Shown piece by piece: positions 2,780-33,541 of a stretch of 39,843 bases of DNA. Position 1 is the first letter of the stretch. Each line of letters opens with the position of its first letter. A model generated the notes under the pieces. It did no database searches. It had not been told where the DNA came from and worked only from the letters and a program-made list of their open reading frames with translations. Source of the DNA: Nitrospira sp. GTDB lineage: Bacteria; Nitrospirota; Nitrospiria; Nitrospirales; Nitrospiraceae. The position numbers and the translations under genes were made by a program. The DNA lies in contig SWDG01000023.1 in assembly GCA_005116965.1 (NCBI GenBank), positions 280,007 to 319,849 on the forward strand, in the 5' to 3' direction.

Positions 2780-4612
2780 ATGACACGCTCCCGCACGGTC
2801 CAGCTCGAAACGGCGGTCCGGCGAACAGATCGCCTGATCGCTCAAGGCACCCAGGTCAGCGCGACCTTCACGCGCTGGCGACTGGCTATTTTCCTCATCG
2901 GCCTCGTCACCACCGTGACCCTCTATAAGCTCGATTGGTATCACAGCGGCAATTGGGCCCTCGGCCTCTTCTTGGCCGTCTTCATCGCCGTGGCTGCGTA
3001 TCATAACAGGGTGGAAACCGGGATTCATCGGCTTCGACAATGGAAGCAGATCAAACTGGCTCATCGTGCACGCATCGCCTTGGATTGGGCAGCCATTCCG
3101 CCAAGACCCGGCGAAGCTCCGACAGCTCACCCCTACGCCATCGACCTCGATCTCTTTGGAACTCATTCCTTGGCCCATCTCCTCGACACCACCGTCTCGG
3201 ACCATGGCCGAGAGCGCTTGCACGGCTGGTTGTTGAACCAACCCCCTCCCCCTTCACAGTGGGAAACACGGCAGTCGTTGGTGAAGGAACTGGCGCCTCG
3301 CTCTTTATTCCGGGATCGCTTGACTCTTGAGGCCAAACTGACAGGAGAGCAGGAAATCAACGGCAAGCGGCTGGCCGCTGTGCTTGAGCACCCAGTCGGT
3401 CTGCCCAACCTGAATGTGCTGCTGGTCATCCAGAGCCTCTTCGCCTGCACCACGATCGCCCTTGCATCGGCCACGTTGTTCGGCCAGCTCCCTGGGTATT
3501 GGATGTTCTCATTCGCGGCATATGCACTGATCTACTTCATGACCGATCAAGGGGAAGAGCTCCTGGAACATGCGGTCGGCCTACACCATGAAACCGAACG
3601 GCTTGCCATCGTCCTGGGCTACCTCGAGCGTCAGGCTCGGCGACAAGGCACCGCCCTCGCCTCGGTCTGTGCGAATCTGATAGGGGGAGCCAGTCCCACC
3701 CTGCATCTCAAGCAGGCCGCACGGACGCTGCATGCGATCAGCATCAAGGCCCATCCCCTTGTCCATCTGGCCGTCAACGCGTTATGCCCATGGGATCTCT
3801 GGTTCACTCGACAACTGATTCACTCCCAGCGCGAGATCAAGCATGCGCTCCCGCAGTGGTTGGACTGCCTGGCAGAAGTCGAAGCAGCATCGGCTCTGGG
3901 AACCTTTGCCTCTCTCCATCCCGATTACGCATGGCCGACACCCATCATCTCAACCGGTGAGCAGAACGGCGCAGCAGCCGTTCTGCAGGCCACTCACCTT
4001 GGCCATCCACTCCTCTCTACAACGAGTCGTATCGCAAACGATGTCGGTCTAACCGGACTCGGCTCGATCCATCTGATCACGGGCTCGAATATGTCGGGCA
4101 AGAGTACGTTCCTGCGAACGATCGGCATCAATCTCTGCCTGGCGCAAGCTGGAGGGCCGGTCTGCGCACAGTCGTTTACATGGACCTGGAGCCGCCTGGC
4201 CTGCTGCATTCGTGTCGATGATTCACTCGACGCCGGCCTTTCGTTTTTCTACGCTGAAGTCAAACGACTGAAGACCATTCTCGATGCCACCAAGGAACGT
4301 GCCGCACCACCGGTGCTGTTCCTGATCGACGAGATCTTCAAAGGCACCAACAATCGAGAGCGGCTCATCGGCAGCCGGGCCTACATCACCGCACTGTCGC
4401 AAGGACACGGCTTCGGCCTCGTGAGCACCCATGATCTGGAGCTAGCGGATCTGGAGCTAGCCGTCCCCGGCTTGATCAATGCCCACTTTCAAGAAACTGT
4501 CTCGGCCGGCGCACTGGAGTTCGATTACCGAGTCAGACCGGGCCCCTGCCCCACGACGAACGCCCTGAGGATTATGGAGCTGGAAGGATTGCCTATTCCC
4601 CCGGCTCCTTAA
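2780..4612 (+). CDS. Membrane-anchored MutS-like ATPase
   Basis: A 610-residue protein with a MutS-type ABC ATPase domain at its C-terminus but none of the N-terminal mismatch-recognition domains. Walker A is GSNMSGKST at residues 435-443. Walker B is FLIDEIFKGTN with D517/E518, followed by the GLVSTHD switch histidine. The N-terminal half has two hydrophobic pairs at about residues 34-50/57-74 and 211-232/238-255, so it is probably anchored in the membrane. Its middle resembles the MutS lever/clamp region. The open frame extends to 2351, but that part mirrors prmA on the other strand; the ATG at 2780 has an upstream TAAGG. The family occurs in many bacteria and its function is not established; a mismatch-repair role should not be assumed. 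Confidence 0.85.
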   Translation: MTRSRTVQLETAVRRTDRLIAQGTQVSATFTRWRLAIFLIGLVTTVTLYKLDWYHSGNWALGLFLAVFIAVAAYHNRVETGIHRLRQWKQIKLAHRARIALDWAAIPPRPGEAPTAHPYAIDLDLFGTHSLAHLLDTTVSDHGRERLHGWLLNQPPPPSQWETRQSLVKELAPRSLFRDRLTLEAKLTGEQEINGKRLAAVLEHPVGLPNLNVLLVIQSLFACTTIALASATLFGQLPGYWMFSFAAYALIYFMTDQGEELLEHAVGLHHETERLAIVLGYLERQARRQGTALASVCANLIGGASPTLHLKQAARTLHAISIKAHPLVHLAVNALCPWDLWFTRQLIHSQREIKHALPQWLDCLAEVEAASALGTFASLHPDYAWPTPIISTGEQNGAAAVLQATHLGHPLLSTTSRIANDVGLTGLGSIHLITGSNMSGKSTFLRTIGINLCLAQAGGPVCAQSFTWTWSRLACCIRVDDSLDAGLSFFYAEVKRLKTILDATKERAAPPVLFLIDEIFKGTNNRERLIGSRAYITALSQGHGFGLVSTHDLELADLELAVPGLINAHFQETVSAGALEFDYRVRPGPCPTTNALRIMELEGLPIPPAP

Positions 4613-28500: not shown

Positions 28501-28935
28501 CTATAGCTTGCCAGATTGTTGGAGGCTGTGCGCAGTCTCCTTACCAGAAGAAACGCCATGGCTATGCTCAAGCAGCCTTGGGAGATTCCTAAACAAGTCA
28601 TGCAGTGTAGCCAGAACTCCACCAGTGATTTTTCGAAGCTCTCCTTCCGTATACTGCAGCGGAACCAGCCGCCGCTGCCAGCCTCGGAGAGAGAAGGTTC
28701 CACCCAACTGCCTATAGGGAGGCTCACACACCAGCACGAATTCCCTCCCTTGGTTGTCTTCAATAATGAACGTTTGGTTCAGCTTAGGTAGAGCTTGGTG
28801 ACAGGTCGAACAGGACTTTTCTGTCTGCCGACTGAACGCAGGAATAGCTTCTGCCGTCTTTGGCGCTATGACTGCCGATAACCCTGACGCCATAACGCTC
28901 AGCACAACCGCACACAACAACATTCTCATCCGCAT
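28501..28935 (-). CDS. Small haem-c protein with novel C-terminal part
   Basis: A ~144-residue exported protein. A signal peptide (MRMRMLLCAVVLSVMASGLS to about residue 30) is followed by AIPAFSRQTEKSCSTCHQALPKLN, a single CxxCH haem-c site. The AIPAFSRQ-xxx-CxxCH-PKLN pattern opens larger haem porins in related bacteria, but here it ends and an unfamiliar ~80-residue tail follows (REFVLVCEPPYRQLGGTFSL, then WQRRLVPLQYTEGELRKITG). I took the ATG at 28935 because GAGAGGGGAAACAG precedes it. It sits 33 nt downstream of the cytochrome stop, so co-transcription is likely. Could be a genuine small protein or a gene fragment. Confidence 0.55.
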   Translation of the reverse strand: MRMRMLLCAVVLSVMASGLSAVIAPKTAEAIPAFSRQTEKSCSTCHQALPKLNQTFIIEDNQGREFVLVCEPPYRQLGGTFSLRGWQRRLVPLQYTEGELRKITGGVLATLHDLFRNLPRLLEHSHGVSSGKETAHSLQQSGKL

Positions 28936-28968
28936 TCTGTTTCCCCTCTCTGTCTCCATCATTCATAA

Positions 28969-29391
28969 CTACTGCATCGTAAATTTTCGAATGTAGTGGA
29001 CCAGCGCCCACATCTGTTCCTCAGAGAGCTTTTTCTTGTATCCGGACATCTCAGTCGCCTCCGGATCACTCCCGTTCGCGATGATCCAGAAGAGTTGCCC
29101 ATCCGGGATTTTCTCCATCACGTTTTTGTCCCGATAATTTCTCGGTTTGACATCCAATCCTTTCGTGGCAGACCCTTTCCCATCGCCCTTGTCCCCATGA
29201 CATTTGCTGCACTTGTTTTCATAAATGCTCGGAGCCTCCTGCACCACCTCTGAAGTCGGCGGTATCGGGTTCGACGTCTTGAGGACTTCCTCCGGAGCAA
29301 CCGGGGTCTTAAAATCTCCGGCGATGACTGCTGTCGGCCACGCCATGATCACCGCGCCTAACACTGAAAGGCTCAAATGTCTAACATTCAT
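28969..29391 (-). CDS. Exported monohaem cytochrome c
   Basis: A 140-residue protein with a signal peptide (MNVRHLSLSVLGAVIMAWPT) and a class I cytochrome c domain: CSKCHGDKGDGKGS haem-attachment site, and the axial Met in ATEMSGYKKKLSEEQMW with YIRKF at the end. It would act in the periplasm as an electron carrier. AAGGAGGGAGG lies 8 nt before the ATG at 29391, so that start is preferred to 29415. Followed by the second haem protein. Confidence 0.88.
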   Translation of the reverse strand: MNVRHLSLSVLGAVIMAWPTAVIAGDFKTPVAPEEVLKTSNPIPPTSEVVQEAPSIYENKCSKCHGDKGDGKGSATKGLDVKPRNYRDKNVMEKIPDGQLFWIIANGSDPEATEMSGYKKKLSEEQMWALVHYIRKFTMQ

Positions 29392-30633
29392 GTTGTCCTC
29401 CCTCCTTATGGACACCTCTATTGATCGTTATTAAAGAAGAAGTCCGCGGTGCCTATTCCAGGTCGAAACTTCCCGATTGCCCTGGCACCAGATGCAGGCC
29501 ACCTCTCCTTTGTTTGGCGTGCATGGGCTCGTCTCGGTCGGGCATGTCTAGAGAGAGACAGAGCAATCCCTGCACGGGATACGATCATTTTCAAACATGA
29601 TCACCCCACACGCACCAGTCCAATCACGCTTATTTGGCTTAGTTGTCTCTTACGCGGATCGATGATTGGCGCTACGTAAACACACCAGGCATGACAAGAC
29701 ACCTCTACGGTTAGTACTGATCAACACATGCTTGGAGTATCTACACGCAAGTGCGATGCCGCGCTGAATGCATGCGTGACGCACATCACGAATATCGACG
29801 TACGATCTTAATACTCTCAAGGAGTTACGAGTCCATACATCCACGAAGGATGTGAATACCAGGAAGATACGTAGAGCATTTCGCGATACGACTATCGCAT
29901 GGCAAGAACTACAGCCGCACACCAGGATCGAGCGATACACACACCGTCAGTTCACAAATCGAAACGGGTTCACGATTTTCACTATTGGGATTACTATCCC
30001 AATTTTATAACCGCTTACGTATTCCAGGGCGGACACCCAGCCAGAAAGAACCGTGCCGAACAATGCGTGCGCGTTGCTGCTCCACAACATGTCGGGAACT
30101 GCATACACCAGAACAACCGCTCCATACACAACCGCGAGACCGTCATGAACATTTCCCGATTGACTTCAATTTTCAATATGGGATAATTTTCCCATATTGC
30201 ATATCCGCAGTCTCACAGGCAATGATACGTACACAGTCCCGCCTGACGTGTGTATACACTTCGAATGACGCGCACGAGCGTGCAGCCATCGCCTTGGGAG
30301 CAAAACAATGGAAGAGCCAGAACCGCTAGGCGCGCGCGTGAGATGTAGATGTAACGGAGAGGAGAACTTGCCCTGAAAGGATGGACGCAGTAAGCTATCA
30401 AGGCCCGACCTCCATCGGACGTTCAAGCCAAAGCATCGGCGGACCGATCTTCTGCAATTGCAGATGGCAGCTAGGACTATTTCCGTGAGTCACTGATGCA
30501 GGACGAGCCTCGGCAGGAGCCTCTCTGCTGGAACGTTCGAAGTCGAGGTCCGAAGAGGAGACGATCTGCCCTATATCATGATTGTCACTGCGTCGGGAGA
30601 CGACTAGGGGCGGACAGTTAGCCTCCCATGGAA
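29392..30633. other. Gene desert with paired palindromes
   Basis: No convincing gene in 1242 bases. Five inverted repeats are visible: GATCAT...ATGATC at 29583-29602; CGTGACGCACATCACG, a CRP/FNR-like 5-6-5 dyad, at 29775-29790; ATTGGGAT-TACT-ATCCCAAT at 29984-30003; AATATGGGA-TAATTT-TCCCATATT at 30175-30198; and short ones elsewhere. The third and fourth share GGGAT-N6-TCCC spacing. A minus-strand hydrophobic 60-codon frame at 29947-30129 lies between the two and is not recognised. The 29.4-29.8 kb part would hold the cytochrome promoter. Confidence 0.5.
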
Positions 30634-31737
30634 TCAGCAAACAGGGACCGTTGAATCCCCGCAAGGCAAGCGAGCGCCGGTTGAATTGACCATTGTCGGT
30701 TCGGCGTGATCCTCTTCTTCTCTTTCGAACTTCACTTTCGTCGCATTCACAACCCCGTCGACTAACGGACCGTTTACCACCAGGCGAATGCCGACTTGAA
30801 CGTCGCTCGGGGTTCCGCCTTCGAATACTGTCCCGGGACTTGTCTGTACACGGACAATGCCCATCGAAAAGTCGCTTAAATCACGTACGTGGGTCACAAA
30901 TGCTTCCACTTTGGCGTTCTCACTATCCTTTGAACCCAGCGTTTCTGGCCATACGAGGTTCGCTTTCATACGAACGCCGGACGAACCTGGGTCTCCAGAC
31001 GACACCTGGTCTCCTGTCGCATCGACTAACAACCCGTTCCAATCATCGCCGCTTATTTGGCCCGGCATGTCGTTCAACCTCGCATCGCTGTACTCGATGG
31101 TCAGGGCGCCGATCTCGAAGGTTTTTTGAGCAGCATTGTGGTTCTTGATGAAACCTTTGACCTCATAGTCAGGAACCTGCGTGTTCATATCGAGAGTTCT
31201 CAACTCTATGAACGTTCCCATGATCGCACCATCCCCCGTGACAAACCCGCTGACCTCTACGAGATCTCGACCTGGCATGAGACTGAGAACATTACGTCCA
31301 GGAATACTGGCATCGACAACCGTCGACGTCGTTATGGCGACGGTCTGACCCAAGACAACCAGGCTTGACCCATCCGAGGCTACCGATTGCACGACCCCTT
31401 CGACCGTATCCTCGTACAGCAATGTGTTCGCCGCGCGCTGCAGCACGTCATGTGTATCGTAACGCTCCGTTACCGTCGCGTTAACACGCACCAGCATCCC
31501 CTTTTTGAGATCAGTGAGGCTGCCGGATTTCCCATCGACCATCATCGACGTACTGCCGGTCTCGTACTCGTATCCGGAGACAAACACACTGCCGAACCCG
31601 GTGATTGCCCCAGAAACTACCGACGCGATCTGGCCTGTCCCACCGATCCCACCTCCGGCTTGTGGACCCGGACCGCACGATGCCAGTAAGAGGCACAGGG
31701 CGATCGCCCCAAGAAAGTTTTGATCGAGCTTCAGCAT
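30634..31737 (-). CDS. DUF5666 lipoprotein
   Basis: A ~367-residue predicted lipoprotein: a lipobox LLLASC (C21) follows MLKLDQNFLGAIALC, then a Gly-rich stretch (GGGIGGTGQ). The rest is a chain of DUF5666-like beta units, with recurring patterns such as VSGAITGFGSVFVSG, VDGKSGSLTDLKKGMLVRVN, and VEGVVQSVASDGSSLVVLGQ. The frame also opens at a TTG (31791) inside the DUF6502 gene; the ATG at 31737 is cleaner for a lipoprotein, although no strong ribosome-binding site precedes either. It directly follows the DUF6502 gene and is likely co-transcribed. Function unknown; probably surface-facing. Confidence 0.75.
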   Translation of the reverse strand: MLKLDQNFLGAIALCLLLASCGPGPQAGGGIGGTGQIASVVSGAITGFGSVFVSGYEYETGSTSMMVDGKSGSLTDLKKGMLVRVNATVTERYDTHDVLQRAANTLLYEDTVEGVVQSVASDGSSLVVLGQTVAITTSTVVDASIPGRNVLSLMPGRDLVEVSGFVTGDGAIMGTFIELRTLDMNTQVPDYEVKGFIKNHNAAQKTFEIGALTIEYSDARLNDMPGQISGDDWNGLLVDATGDQVSSGDPGSSGVRMKANLVWPETLGSKDSENAKVEAFVTHVRDLSDFSMGIVRVQTSPGTVFEGGTPSDVQVGIRLVVNGPLVDGVVNATKVKFEREEEDHAEPTMVNSTGARLPCGDSTVPVC

Positions 31738-31765: not shown

Positions 31766-32590
31766 TCAGTCAGATCGTTCTTGTTCTTCAAAATGATAGA
31801 TCCCTAGCCCCACGCGCACGCGACCGCTCCCCTTTGATGCTGGGTTCATATCACGATCCCGATGAGAGAGCCACCGATCGAACTTCTCTAAGAGTTCCTG
31901 TCCTTCTGCAGACGCCAGCGTGCGAAATTCCTTCGCGGTCTCTAACGAGACGTTGTCATACATGACCTTGCGTTGGAACCGAGGCTTCGACGGCTTCAGA
32001 TGGACGTTATGATCGATGGTTGAAATAAGATCAGCAGTATCGGCTCCAAGTACCTGCAATTTTTCAACCGAACCTTTCTGAGGAACGTAGCCGCGAGAGA
32101 GCAGACAAATTCGCCCATCTTTCAATTGCTTAACCGCACCGACCCGTAACAACTCATCCAACAAGGCCCTCACCGGGATGTCTCCACTGTAGCGTTTCAC
32201 CAACACACTGAATGAAGCTCCCCGCCCCTCCATTCGAAGTGGTCGAGGATGGCCCTTTCCATCTCCGAAATCGGAGTCCCGGATCCAGCCGGTGATCACT
32301 CGTGAAGCTCGATGGTACTCTTCATTTATAATGGATCGAGAATGAGGCGGGAGCGTCAAGATCCGTTGCACTTCCTTGCGCGTCAATCCACTGAGGATCG
32401 CGATCCGCGACACCGTCTGCTTCTTACCATGAATTCCAAACTCAGCGTTCGCAACCTCCACGTAGACCTGCTTGGCCAGCTCGGCGAACGTCCGATGGGA
32501 CACATTGTTCCGAAGAAGAATCCGCACCAACGGTCGAAGAAGCTGGAGGGTGGCGTGAGAAAGTGCTTGTCCGTGCTTGGACTGAGCCAT
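31766..32590 (-). CDS. DUF6502 protein, putative regulator
   Basis: A 274-residue cytoplasmic protein that fits DUF6502. Residues ~25-80 look like a helix-turn-helix: NNVSHRTFAELAKQVYVEVA, then KKQTVSRIAILSGLTRKEVQ. A second winged-helix-like part around residues 85-170 includes VKRYSGDIPVRALLDELLRVGAVK. No signal peptide. A palindrome (ATTACAA-N5-TTGTAAT) lies 54 nt upstream, consistent with autoregulation. The downstream DUF5666 lipoprotein gene follows within 30 nt, or overlaps if its TTG start is used. I infer a transcription regulator with a linked surface lipoprotein. Confidence 0.72.
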   Translation of the reverse strand: MAQSKHGQALSHATLQLLRPLVRILLRNNVSHRTFAELAKQVYVEVANAEFGIHGKKQTVSRIAILSGLTRKEVQRILTLPPHSRSIINEEYHRASRVITGWIRDSDFGDGKGHPRPLRMEGRGASFSVLVKRYSGDIPVRALLDELLRVGAVKQLKDGRICLLSRGYVPQKGSVEKLQVLGADTADLISTIDHNVHLKPSKPRFQRKVMYDNVSLETAKEFRTLASAEGQELLEKFDRWLSHRDRDMNPASKGSGRVRVGLGIYHFEEQERSD

Positions 32591-32914
32591 ATTGGGACTG
32601 AGCCTTAATTTAAGGGGGGAGTATACAACCTCCTTAGGCTCTCATTACAAGTGCGTTGTAATTGCATGTGCGGTAGTCGCAGCCTGGAATAGCGGGACAT
32701 TGCCATGCCACAGCCACGTTGCACAGACGTGAGTCTCAGAACTTGTCCATGGTTGAAGGCATTTACGTGTGAACGCGAATGAGCGTATTGCCGCAGCAAT
32801 CAATATATGGCAAGGTTCGAAAGATAATTGAGGTGAGACAGCGTTGCGTTCGTCGAGACACCGATCATTGATGGCAGCCGACACTTCGTAGCAGTCTTAG
32901 GAAAGGAAGGTGCC
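32591..32914. other. Divergent promoter region
   Basis: A 324-base gap between divergent genes (DUF6502 on the minus strand, methyltransferase on the plus strand). It holds the palindrome at 32644-32662 and a GGACTGAGCC direct repeat spanning the DUF6502 start (about 32578-32605). No extra gene seen. Confidence 0.45.
32644..32662. promoter_or_regulatory. Candidate operator for the DUF6502-DUF5666 operon
   Basis: ATTACAA-GTGCG-TTGTAAT is a perfect 7-bp inverted repeat with a 5-nt centre, 54 nt upstream of the DUF6502 start. Inferred as a regulator-binding site from position. Confidence 0.45.
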
Positions 32915-33541
32915 GTGATCCACAAACTCCTGCCCGCACAGATTAACGTACTGTTGGTTATCCTAGGGCTCACCGGTTGTGCCCAATGGAACTATCAAGA
33001 CCTGAGCGACCCCTCACGGGATGTATGGCAGAAACCACAAGGGGTCGTTGAAAAGCTGTCCATCGCGCGGGGAGCAAGGGTGGCAGACTTGGGTGCCGGC
33101 GGAGGCTACTTTACCTGGCACCTGGCCAAGGCGGTCGGGGCCAGAGGAACAGTCTATGCGGTTGATACCAAGGAGAGCTCGATCAACATGATCATCAAGG
33201 AAATGGTTGCCCGAGGGACCCCGAATGTCCGGCCGGTCCGGGCCGAGCCGCACGATCCAAGACTTCCGGAACCCGTCGATCTGGTGTTCAGTTGCGATGG
33301 CTATCATGACATGAACGATCGAGTAGACTATTTTCGATCCCTCGCCTCATCGCTACGACCGGGCGGTCGCGTCGCGATTCTCGATTTTCACCCTCGTGGA
33401 TTCTTTTCCAGTATGTTCGTTCACAGAACCGCGAAAGAAGAGGTCCGACGCGAAATGGAGGCCGCCGGCTATCAGCTTCTGAACGATTACGATGTCGTCG
33501 ACAGTCAGCACTTCCAGGTTTTCGCGAAGGCGGAGCGGTAG
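32915..33541 (+). CDS. Lipoprotein-type class I SAM methyltransferase
   Basis: A 208-residue Rossmann methyltransferase with a lipoprotein signal: MIHKLLPAQINVLLVILGLT followed by GC (C22). The fold shows motif I VADLGAGGGYFTWHLAKAVG, acidic D in YAVDTKE, and DLVFSCDGYHDMND, RPGGRVAILDF, and a C-terminal FQVFAKAE strand. SAM is a cytoplasmic cofactor, so an enzyme with a lipobox is odd; many bacteria have this arrangement. The GTG start at 32915 has a strong AGGAAAGGAAGG. It stands alone, divergent from DUF6502. Confidence 0.75.
   Translation: MIHKLLPAQINVLLVILGLTGCAQWNYQDLSDPSRDVWQKPQGVVEKLSIARGARVADLGAGGGYFTWHLAKAVGARGTVYAVDTKESSINMIIKEMVARGTPNVRPVRAEPHDPRLPEPVDLVFSCDGYHDMNDRVDYFRSLASSLRPGGRVAILDFHPRGFFSSMFVHRTAKEEVRREMEAAGYQLLNDYDVVDSQHFQVFAKAER

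Follow-up and report, generated by a model that had tools for sequence, protein, structure and literature searches.

In a 39,843-nucleotide stretch of Nitrospira sp. DNA, referred to here as the window, a predicted regulator gene of the DUF6502 family is followed by a gene for a DUF5666-type lipoprotein and preceded by a perfect palindrome. The question raised by this locus is which DNA site the regulator recognizes and which genes it controls. To our knowledge no function has been described for the family (PF20112). A literature search returned no paper naming DUF6502 and none of the operator sequences searched and, as a preliminary description of this DNA had supposed, no described function for the pair; DUF5666 has one or two mentions in each of four papers. 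The operator, partner and regulon set out below for PF20112 are newly proposed here.

The gene pair and its distribution

The DUF6502 gene (31766-32590, reverse strand) encodes a protein of 274 aa that matches PF20112 at 512.9 bits (gathering score 27, E 1.6e-154) over positions 2-268 of the 268 in the model and is a full-length member of the family. This match, an AF2 model and structural matches to HTH domains and to HetR mark it as a predicted two-HTH transcription factor. The lipoprotein gene (30634-31737, reverse strand) encodes 367 aa with a lipobox (LAS-C21) and tandem OB-like barrels; PF18914 (DUF5666) matches the protein in two stretches at 64 bits (gathering score 27). After the lipobox lies a GGGIGGTG motif (31633-31656, reverse strand), a mark of DUF6502-linked proteins. 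Neither of the two proteins was matched in NCBIfam. The genes had been described as lying within 30 nt of each other or overlapping by 26 nt depending on the start, and the coordinates agree: a TTG start at 31791 gives the 26-nt overlap and an ATG at 31737 a 28-nt gap. The TTG start was rejected and the ATG, with a gap of 27-28 nt, is favoured because a 98%-identical ortholog (G016) has no open frame ahead of the ATG. Very probably one gene of the pair encodes a regulator that binds DNA and the other a lipoprotein that is exported. Two minor features of the surroundings may be mentioned, a divergent gene at 32915-33541 (forward strand) whose product has a methyltransferase domain and possibly a lipobox (LTGC), and an abrupt change of sequence upstream of DUF6502 in G016 (L008).

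The nearest locus in a scan of genome contigs was that of Nitrospira sp. RSF5, in which DUF6502 is 98% identical, and a second DUF6502-DUF5666 pair is found in the same genome as the window on contig C12. Further relatives were found by the scan in the Nitrospirota, in gamma-, beta- and deltaproteobacteria and in SAR324; within a phylum sample of 245 Nitrospirota genomes DUF6502 was present in 36, two of these being weak matches. Loci were dereplicated at 90% identity, which left 73 with enough sequence for adjacency to be counted. In 67 of these, from Nitrospirota, Proteobacteria and SAR324, a DUF5666-type lipoprotein gene starts at most 300 nt after DUF6502, and in two further loci it lies at about 840 nt. 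The coupling of a regulator to a beta-rich lipoprotein that the preliminary description had proposed is accordingly supported as a conserved adjacent pair. A third gene conserved after the pair across phyla was looked for and none was seen.

PF18914 was matched by all 31 partner proteins scanned. A GGxGGTG-type motif near the lipobox is present in 62 of the 70 proteins encoded downstream as compared with 1 of 560 background frames. It is absent from the only DUF5666 lipoprotein in the window's genome that is not encoded beside DUF6502. In a diverged DUF6502 subfamily of the Burkholderiaceae many partners have no DUF5666-type match, yet they carry a lipobox and a GPGTGGTG-like motif. Judged from these sequences, the motif seems to be more constant among the partners than the DUF5666 domain, and DUF6502 gains a partner that is nearly constant and can be recognized by this motif. 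In the Burkholderiaceae loci L237-L256 the gene after DUF6502 mostly encodes a protein with the GPGTGGTG-like motif.

Palindromes upstream of DUF6502

The palindrome seen at the outset, ATTACAA-GTGCG-TTGTAAT, is present at 32644-32662, 53-54 nt before the DUF6502 ATG, and is perfect, as had been described. It had been taken as the element governing a two-gene signalling or adhesion module. No second exact copy exists in the genome, and the proximal arm could serve as the -35 element (TTGTAA) of a promoter with TATACT at 32620-32625 and a spacer of 19. The palindrome is, however, not conserved. ATTACAA-N5-TTGTAAT with three or fewer mismatches was found only upstream of L002, L007, L008 and L060, which constitute one species-level cluster, and it is eroded in the next relative, L022. 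In addition, the window is rich in short inverted repeats: 33 with perfect 7-bp arms and loops of 3-8 nt were found, roughly twice the 14.6 expected, and the chance expectation of such a repeat in any 150-nt upstream stretch is 0.055. A bare inverted repeat is weak evidence for an operator here. Given that the conserved operator of the DUF6502 family has a different sequence, a module governed by the palindrome at 32644-32662 is very improbable.

Side-by-side reading of the upstream regions revealed this different palindrome, TTTGGGA-N6-TCCCAAA, whose consensus is ATTTGGGAATATATTCCCAAAT. It was quantified in 75 dereplicated loci with the probe TTGGGA-N6-TCCCAA, which has 12 scored positions, allowing at most two mismatches. 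The probe was matched exactly before DUF6502 in 35 of the 75 loci and with no more than 2 of 12 mismatches in 56, against rates of 0.4% in shuffled upstream regions and about 1% elsewhere within these loci. In several loci that lack a site directly before DUF6502 the site instead precedes an upstream gene on the same strand, such as an extra lipoprotein gene in L134 and a nine-CxxCH cytochrome gene in L138. The diverged Burkholderiaceae subfamily (L237-L256) has no TTGGGA-N6-TCCCAA directly upstream, and some of its members have TCCCACG-like half sites.

In most lineages DUF6502 is preceded by a TTGACA-N17-TATAAT promoter whose -10 box and the palindrome overlap. A TTGACA-like -35 element matching in at least 5 of 6 positions was found in 44 of 57 cases; its commonest start is 16 nt ahead of the palindrome, within which TATAAT then lies at a 17-bp spacer. 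The commonest distance from the palindrome to the ATG is 2 nt. Because of this arrangement of promoter, palindrome and start codon, the transcript of the DUF6502 operon in canonical lineages is probably leaderless and its operator would occlude the -10 box.

Occurrence of the motif was subsequently compared with that of the gene. Among the Nitrospirota the exact motif was present in 23 of 36 genomes with DUF6502 and in 11 of 209 without it (p=3e-15), and a reversed control pattern was present in about 17 of 245. In the Burkholderiaceae it was found in 7 of 10 genomes that have the close DUF6502 subfamily versus 5 of 190 others (p=4e-8). These p-values overstate independence as the genomes are related; the two separate phyla nonetheless agree. 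The co-occurrence bears on whether some other regulator binds the palindrome, DUF6502 and the lipoprotein being mere members of that factor's regulon. Binding by DUF6502 is read from sequence, and the site also stands before cytochrome, lipoprotein and glycosyltransferase genes where there is no DUF6502 gene, both of which would be compatible with another factor that co-occurs with DUF6502. On the other hand, the motif is at chance level in the Nitrospirota that lack DUF6502 (11/209, the reversed control giving roughly 17/245), and in a second phylum its occurrence again follows that of the close DUF6502 subfamily. DUF6502 is, moreover, the gene constantly found behind the site, and its product has HTH segments. 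Another regulator is therefore quite unlikely, and we hold it highly probable that DUF6502 itself recognizes TTTGGGA-N6-TCCCAAA. Two genomes, G221 and G304 (L155, L178-L183), carry 6-8 exact operator copies each; some of these are extended to long palindromes (e.g. in L178 near 3027) and two lie at contig positions 57-74.

Structure models and the direction of control

The AF2 model of DUF6502 is of medium quality (pLDDT 76, pTM 0.42). It supports the HTH-like segments previously noted in the protein. The first HTH (32354-32413, reverse strand) comprises residues 60-79 with helices at 60-67 and 71-79 and is the most conserved stretch of the family; R62, G68, L69, R71, K72 and E73 are invariant in 40 DUF6502 sequences. 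A winged-HTH-like segment (32102-32212, reverse strand) follows at residues 127-163 (H127-135, H140-149, E153-155, E161-163). Winged-helix regulators of the MarR, DtxR and IclR types match residues ~90-170 with Z 5-6, but only through this one domain and with the rest of the protein uncovered. The best full-length fold match in the PDB was instead HetR, the cyanobacterial heterocyst regulator (4hri, 4j00, 4yrv), with a Foldseek E of 4.7e-4 (prob 1.00) and a VIA Z of 8.5 over 215 aligned residues (model 7-270, chain 9-297); matches ranking after HetR covered single domains only. The Z of 8.5 is marginal, as values under 8 may reflect a common arrangement only, and the superposition on HetR, whose fold has three domains (DBD, flap, hood), has an rmsd of 15 Å on a model of pTM 0.42, which suggests that the domain arrangement of the two proteins differs or is badly modelled. 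In the lipoprotein model (pLDDT 84.7) OB-like barrels follow one another, with resemblance to S1, CusF and PilY2.

HetR is a dimer that requires GGG-N5-CCC and is freed from DNA by the PatS peptide (PMC4649674, PMC4192349), and it binds its own promoter (PMC4192349). Both proteins are linked to GGG..CCC palindromes, with N5 in HetR and N8 in the DUF6502-associated sequence, in different hosts and with different targets. HetR matches PF03574 and PF18460 (HetR_C), whereas the DUF6502 protein matches neither, PF20112 being its sole match at E up to 0.001. Sequence homology of DUF6502 to HetR was rejected, as hhalign with 40-127 DUF6502 sequences gave a probability of 0.1, which is not significant, and the HMM search score fell within the range of shuffled HetR. 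The best local alignment is colinear (114-192 with HetR 140-238) and likewise not significant. A PDB sequence search with both profiles returned nothing useful, and no HetR relatives were found in plasmids and viral contigs. Because Z is marginal and the sequence tests give no support, the resemblance is treated as a lead and not as family membership; it raises the question of whether HetR has fold relatives outside cyanobacteria. By analogy, DUF6502 could be a diverged regulator of the HetR superfamily that senses the GGxGGTG segment of its partner as a PatS-like peptide signal and so couples the state of the envelope to cytochrome expression, an idea that we regard as speculative and would not expect to hold.

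The proposed mechanism takes DUF6502 to be a sequence-specific, probably dimeric transcription factor with DNA-binding segments in a HetR-like order. Consensus promoters whose -10 box lies under an operator are typical of repression. From the overlap of the operator with the -10 box, a few bases before the start codon of DUF6502 in most lineages, repression of the protein's own operon is therefore the most likely mode of action. The transcript of this operon is probably leaderless, and the operon includes the gene for the exported GGxGGTG lipoprotein, in which DUF5666 OB-folds are usual. The converse, that DUF6502 is an activator like HetR, is an unlikely reading: HetR, its nearest fold, does activate its targets (PMC4649674) and some promoters in the clade of the window are non-consensus, but the promoters whose -10 box is overlaid by the operator already possess consensus -35 and -10 elements and a 17-bp spacer. 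Repression as the main mode of control is thus somewhat the better supported by promoter geometry.

Sites at other promoters and the cytochrome genes of the window

Sites that do not precede DUF6502 were investigated by reading 20 non-self sites from other genomes together with 60 control windows from the same genomes. A gene with at least four CxxCH motifs was found within 1.5 kb of 9 of the 20 sites and of 2 of the 60 controls (p=3e-5), although L164, L166, L167 and L169 have the same operon type, so that some of the nine sites are not independent. Two of the cytochromes were scanned and match cytochrome c7 and c3 models, and one of them also matches an MtrC/MtrF model above the cut-off. Other non-self sites precede genes for ankyrin-repeat proteins, EpsL-like outer-membrane proteins or a DUF5666-like paralog, and some precede glycosyltransferase-like proteins identified by eye. 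The theme of the regulon is loose, since no haem gene lies close to half of the non-self targets. In L164, L166, L167 and L169 the operator is followed by a gene for a membrane protein (..PVIYEPGKGIWHxLGWxGSGMM..) and then by a gene for a cytochrome with 16-26 CxxCH motifs; the conserved membrane protein from L164 had no Pfam or NCBIfam match.

Taken together, these results make it likely that DUF6502 regulates itself and the lipoprotein gene of its operon and, in many lineages, cytochrome genes as well, probably by repression. The same operator at other promoters would define a small regulon, consisting in many Nitrospirota of operons for multihaem or mono-haem c-type cytochromes and in other lineages of further lipoproteins, glycosyltransferases or outer-membrane proteins. 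That the cytochrome operons are physiological targets is, on balance, favoured, and a role in surface electron transfer may be suggested. Of the simple two-gene signalling or adhesion module in the preliminary description, the conserved pair stands while the restriction to two genes does not, as a small candidate regulon with cytochrome genes is indicated. Two families of unknown function that extend across several phyla gain in this way a testable function, a defined operator and a candidate regulon, and if the proposal is true it offers a handle on the control of c-type cytochrome operons in nitrifiers and their relatives.

The Nitrospira clade of the window departs from the canonical arrangement in that its own DUF6502 promoters lack the conserved operator. 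Operator-like sites are instead found downstream of the pair, ahead of a cytochrome c operon. The first site, TTGGGA-TTACTA-TCCCAA (29985-30002), is the sole exact TTGGGA-N6-TCCCAA in the genome, and the second, ATGGGA-TAATTT-TCCCAT (30178-30195), is one of two exact ATGGGA-N6-TCCCAT, the other lying in the second DUF6502 locus on C12. These three are the only exact symmetric copies in the 3.7 Mb genome, and each of them has a DUF5666 gene on one side and, on the other, an operon that contains genes for a cytochrome c and a Cyc2-like protein. The same layout is seen in L199, L201, L202 and L203.

The cytochrome c gene of the window (28969-29391, reverse strand), the predicted target downstream of the operator-like sites, has a homolog in L203 that matches PF00034/PF13442, and the gene order is conserved in L199-L203. 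It is followed by a truncated copy (28501-28962, reverse strand) of the Cyc2-like gene, which encodes a beta-rich protein with CxxCH and whose identity to the L200 protein ends after 61 query residues. The gene is intact in L200, L203 and L204 (412-446 aa) and also at the second DUF6502 locus of the genome. Cyc2-type cytochrome-porins combine an N-terminal CxxCH with a subsequent outer-membrane barrel. The L200 protein has CxxCH near its N-terminus and a C-terminal Phe, and the Cyc2-like neighbour had no Pfam or NCBIfam match. On C12 a TTGACT-N18-TATATT promoter points towards the cytochrome genes; in the window a distance of 0.6-0.8 kb separates the sites from the cytochrome gene, and the -35 elements on the strand of that gene are weak. 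G015 has about 695 bp (L200 ~3420-4116), placed after the operator sites and ahead of the cytochrome c gene, that are absent from the window, which is either an insertion in G015 or a deletion in the window.
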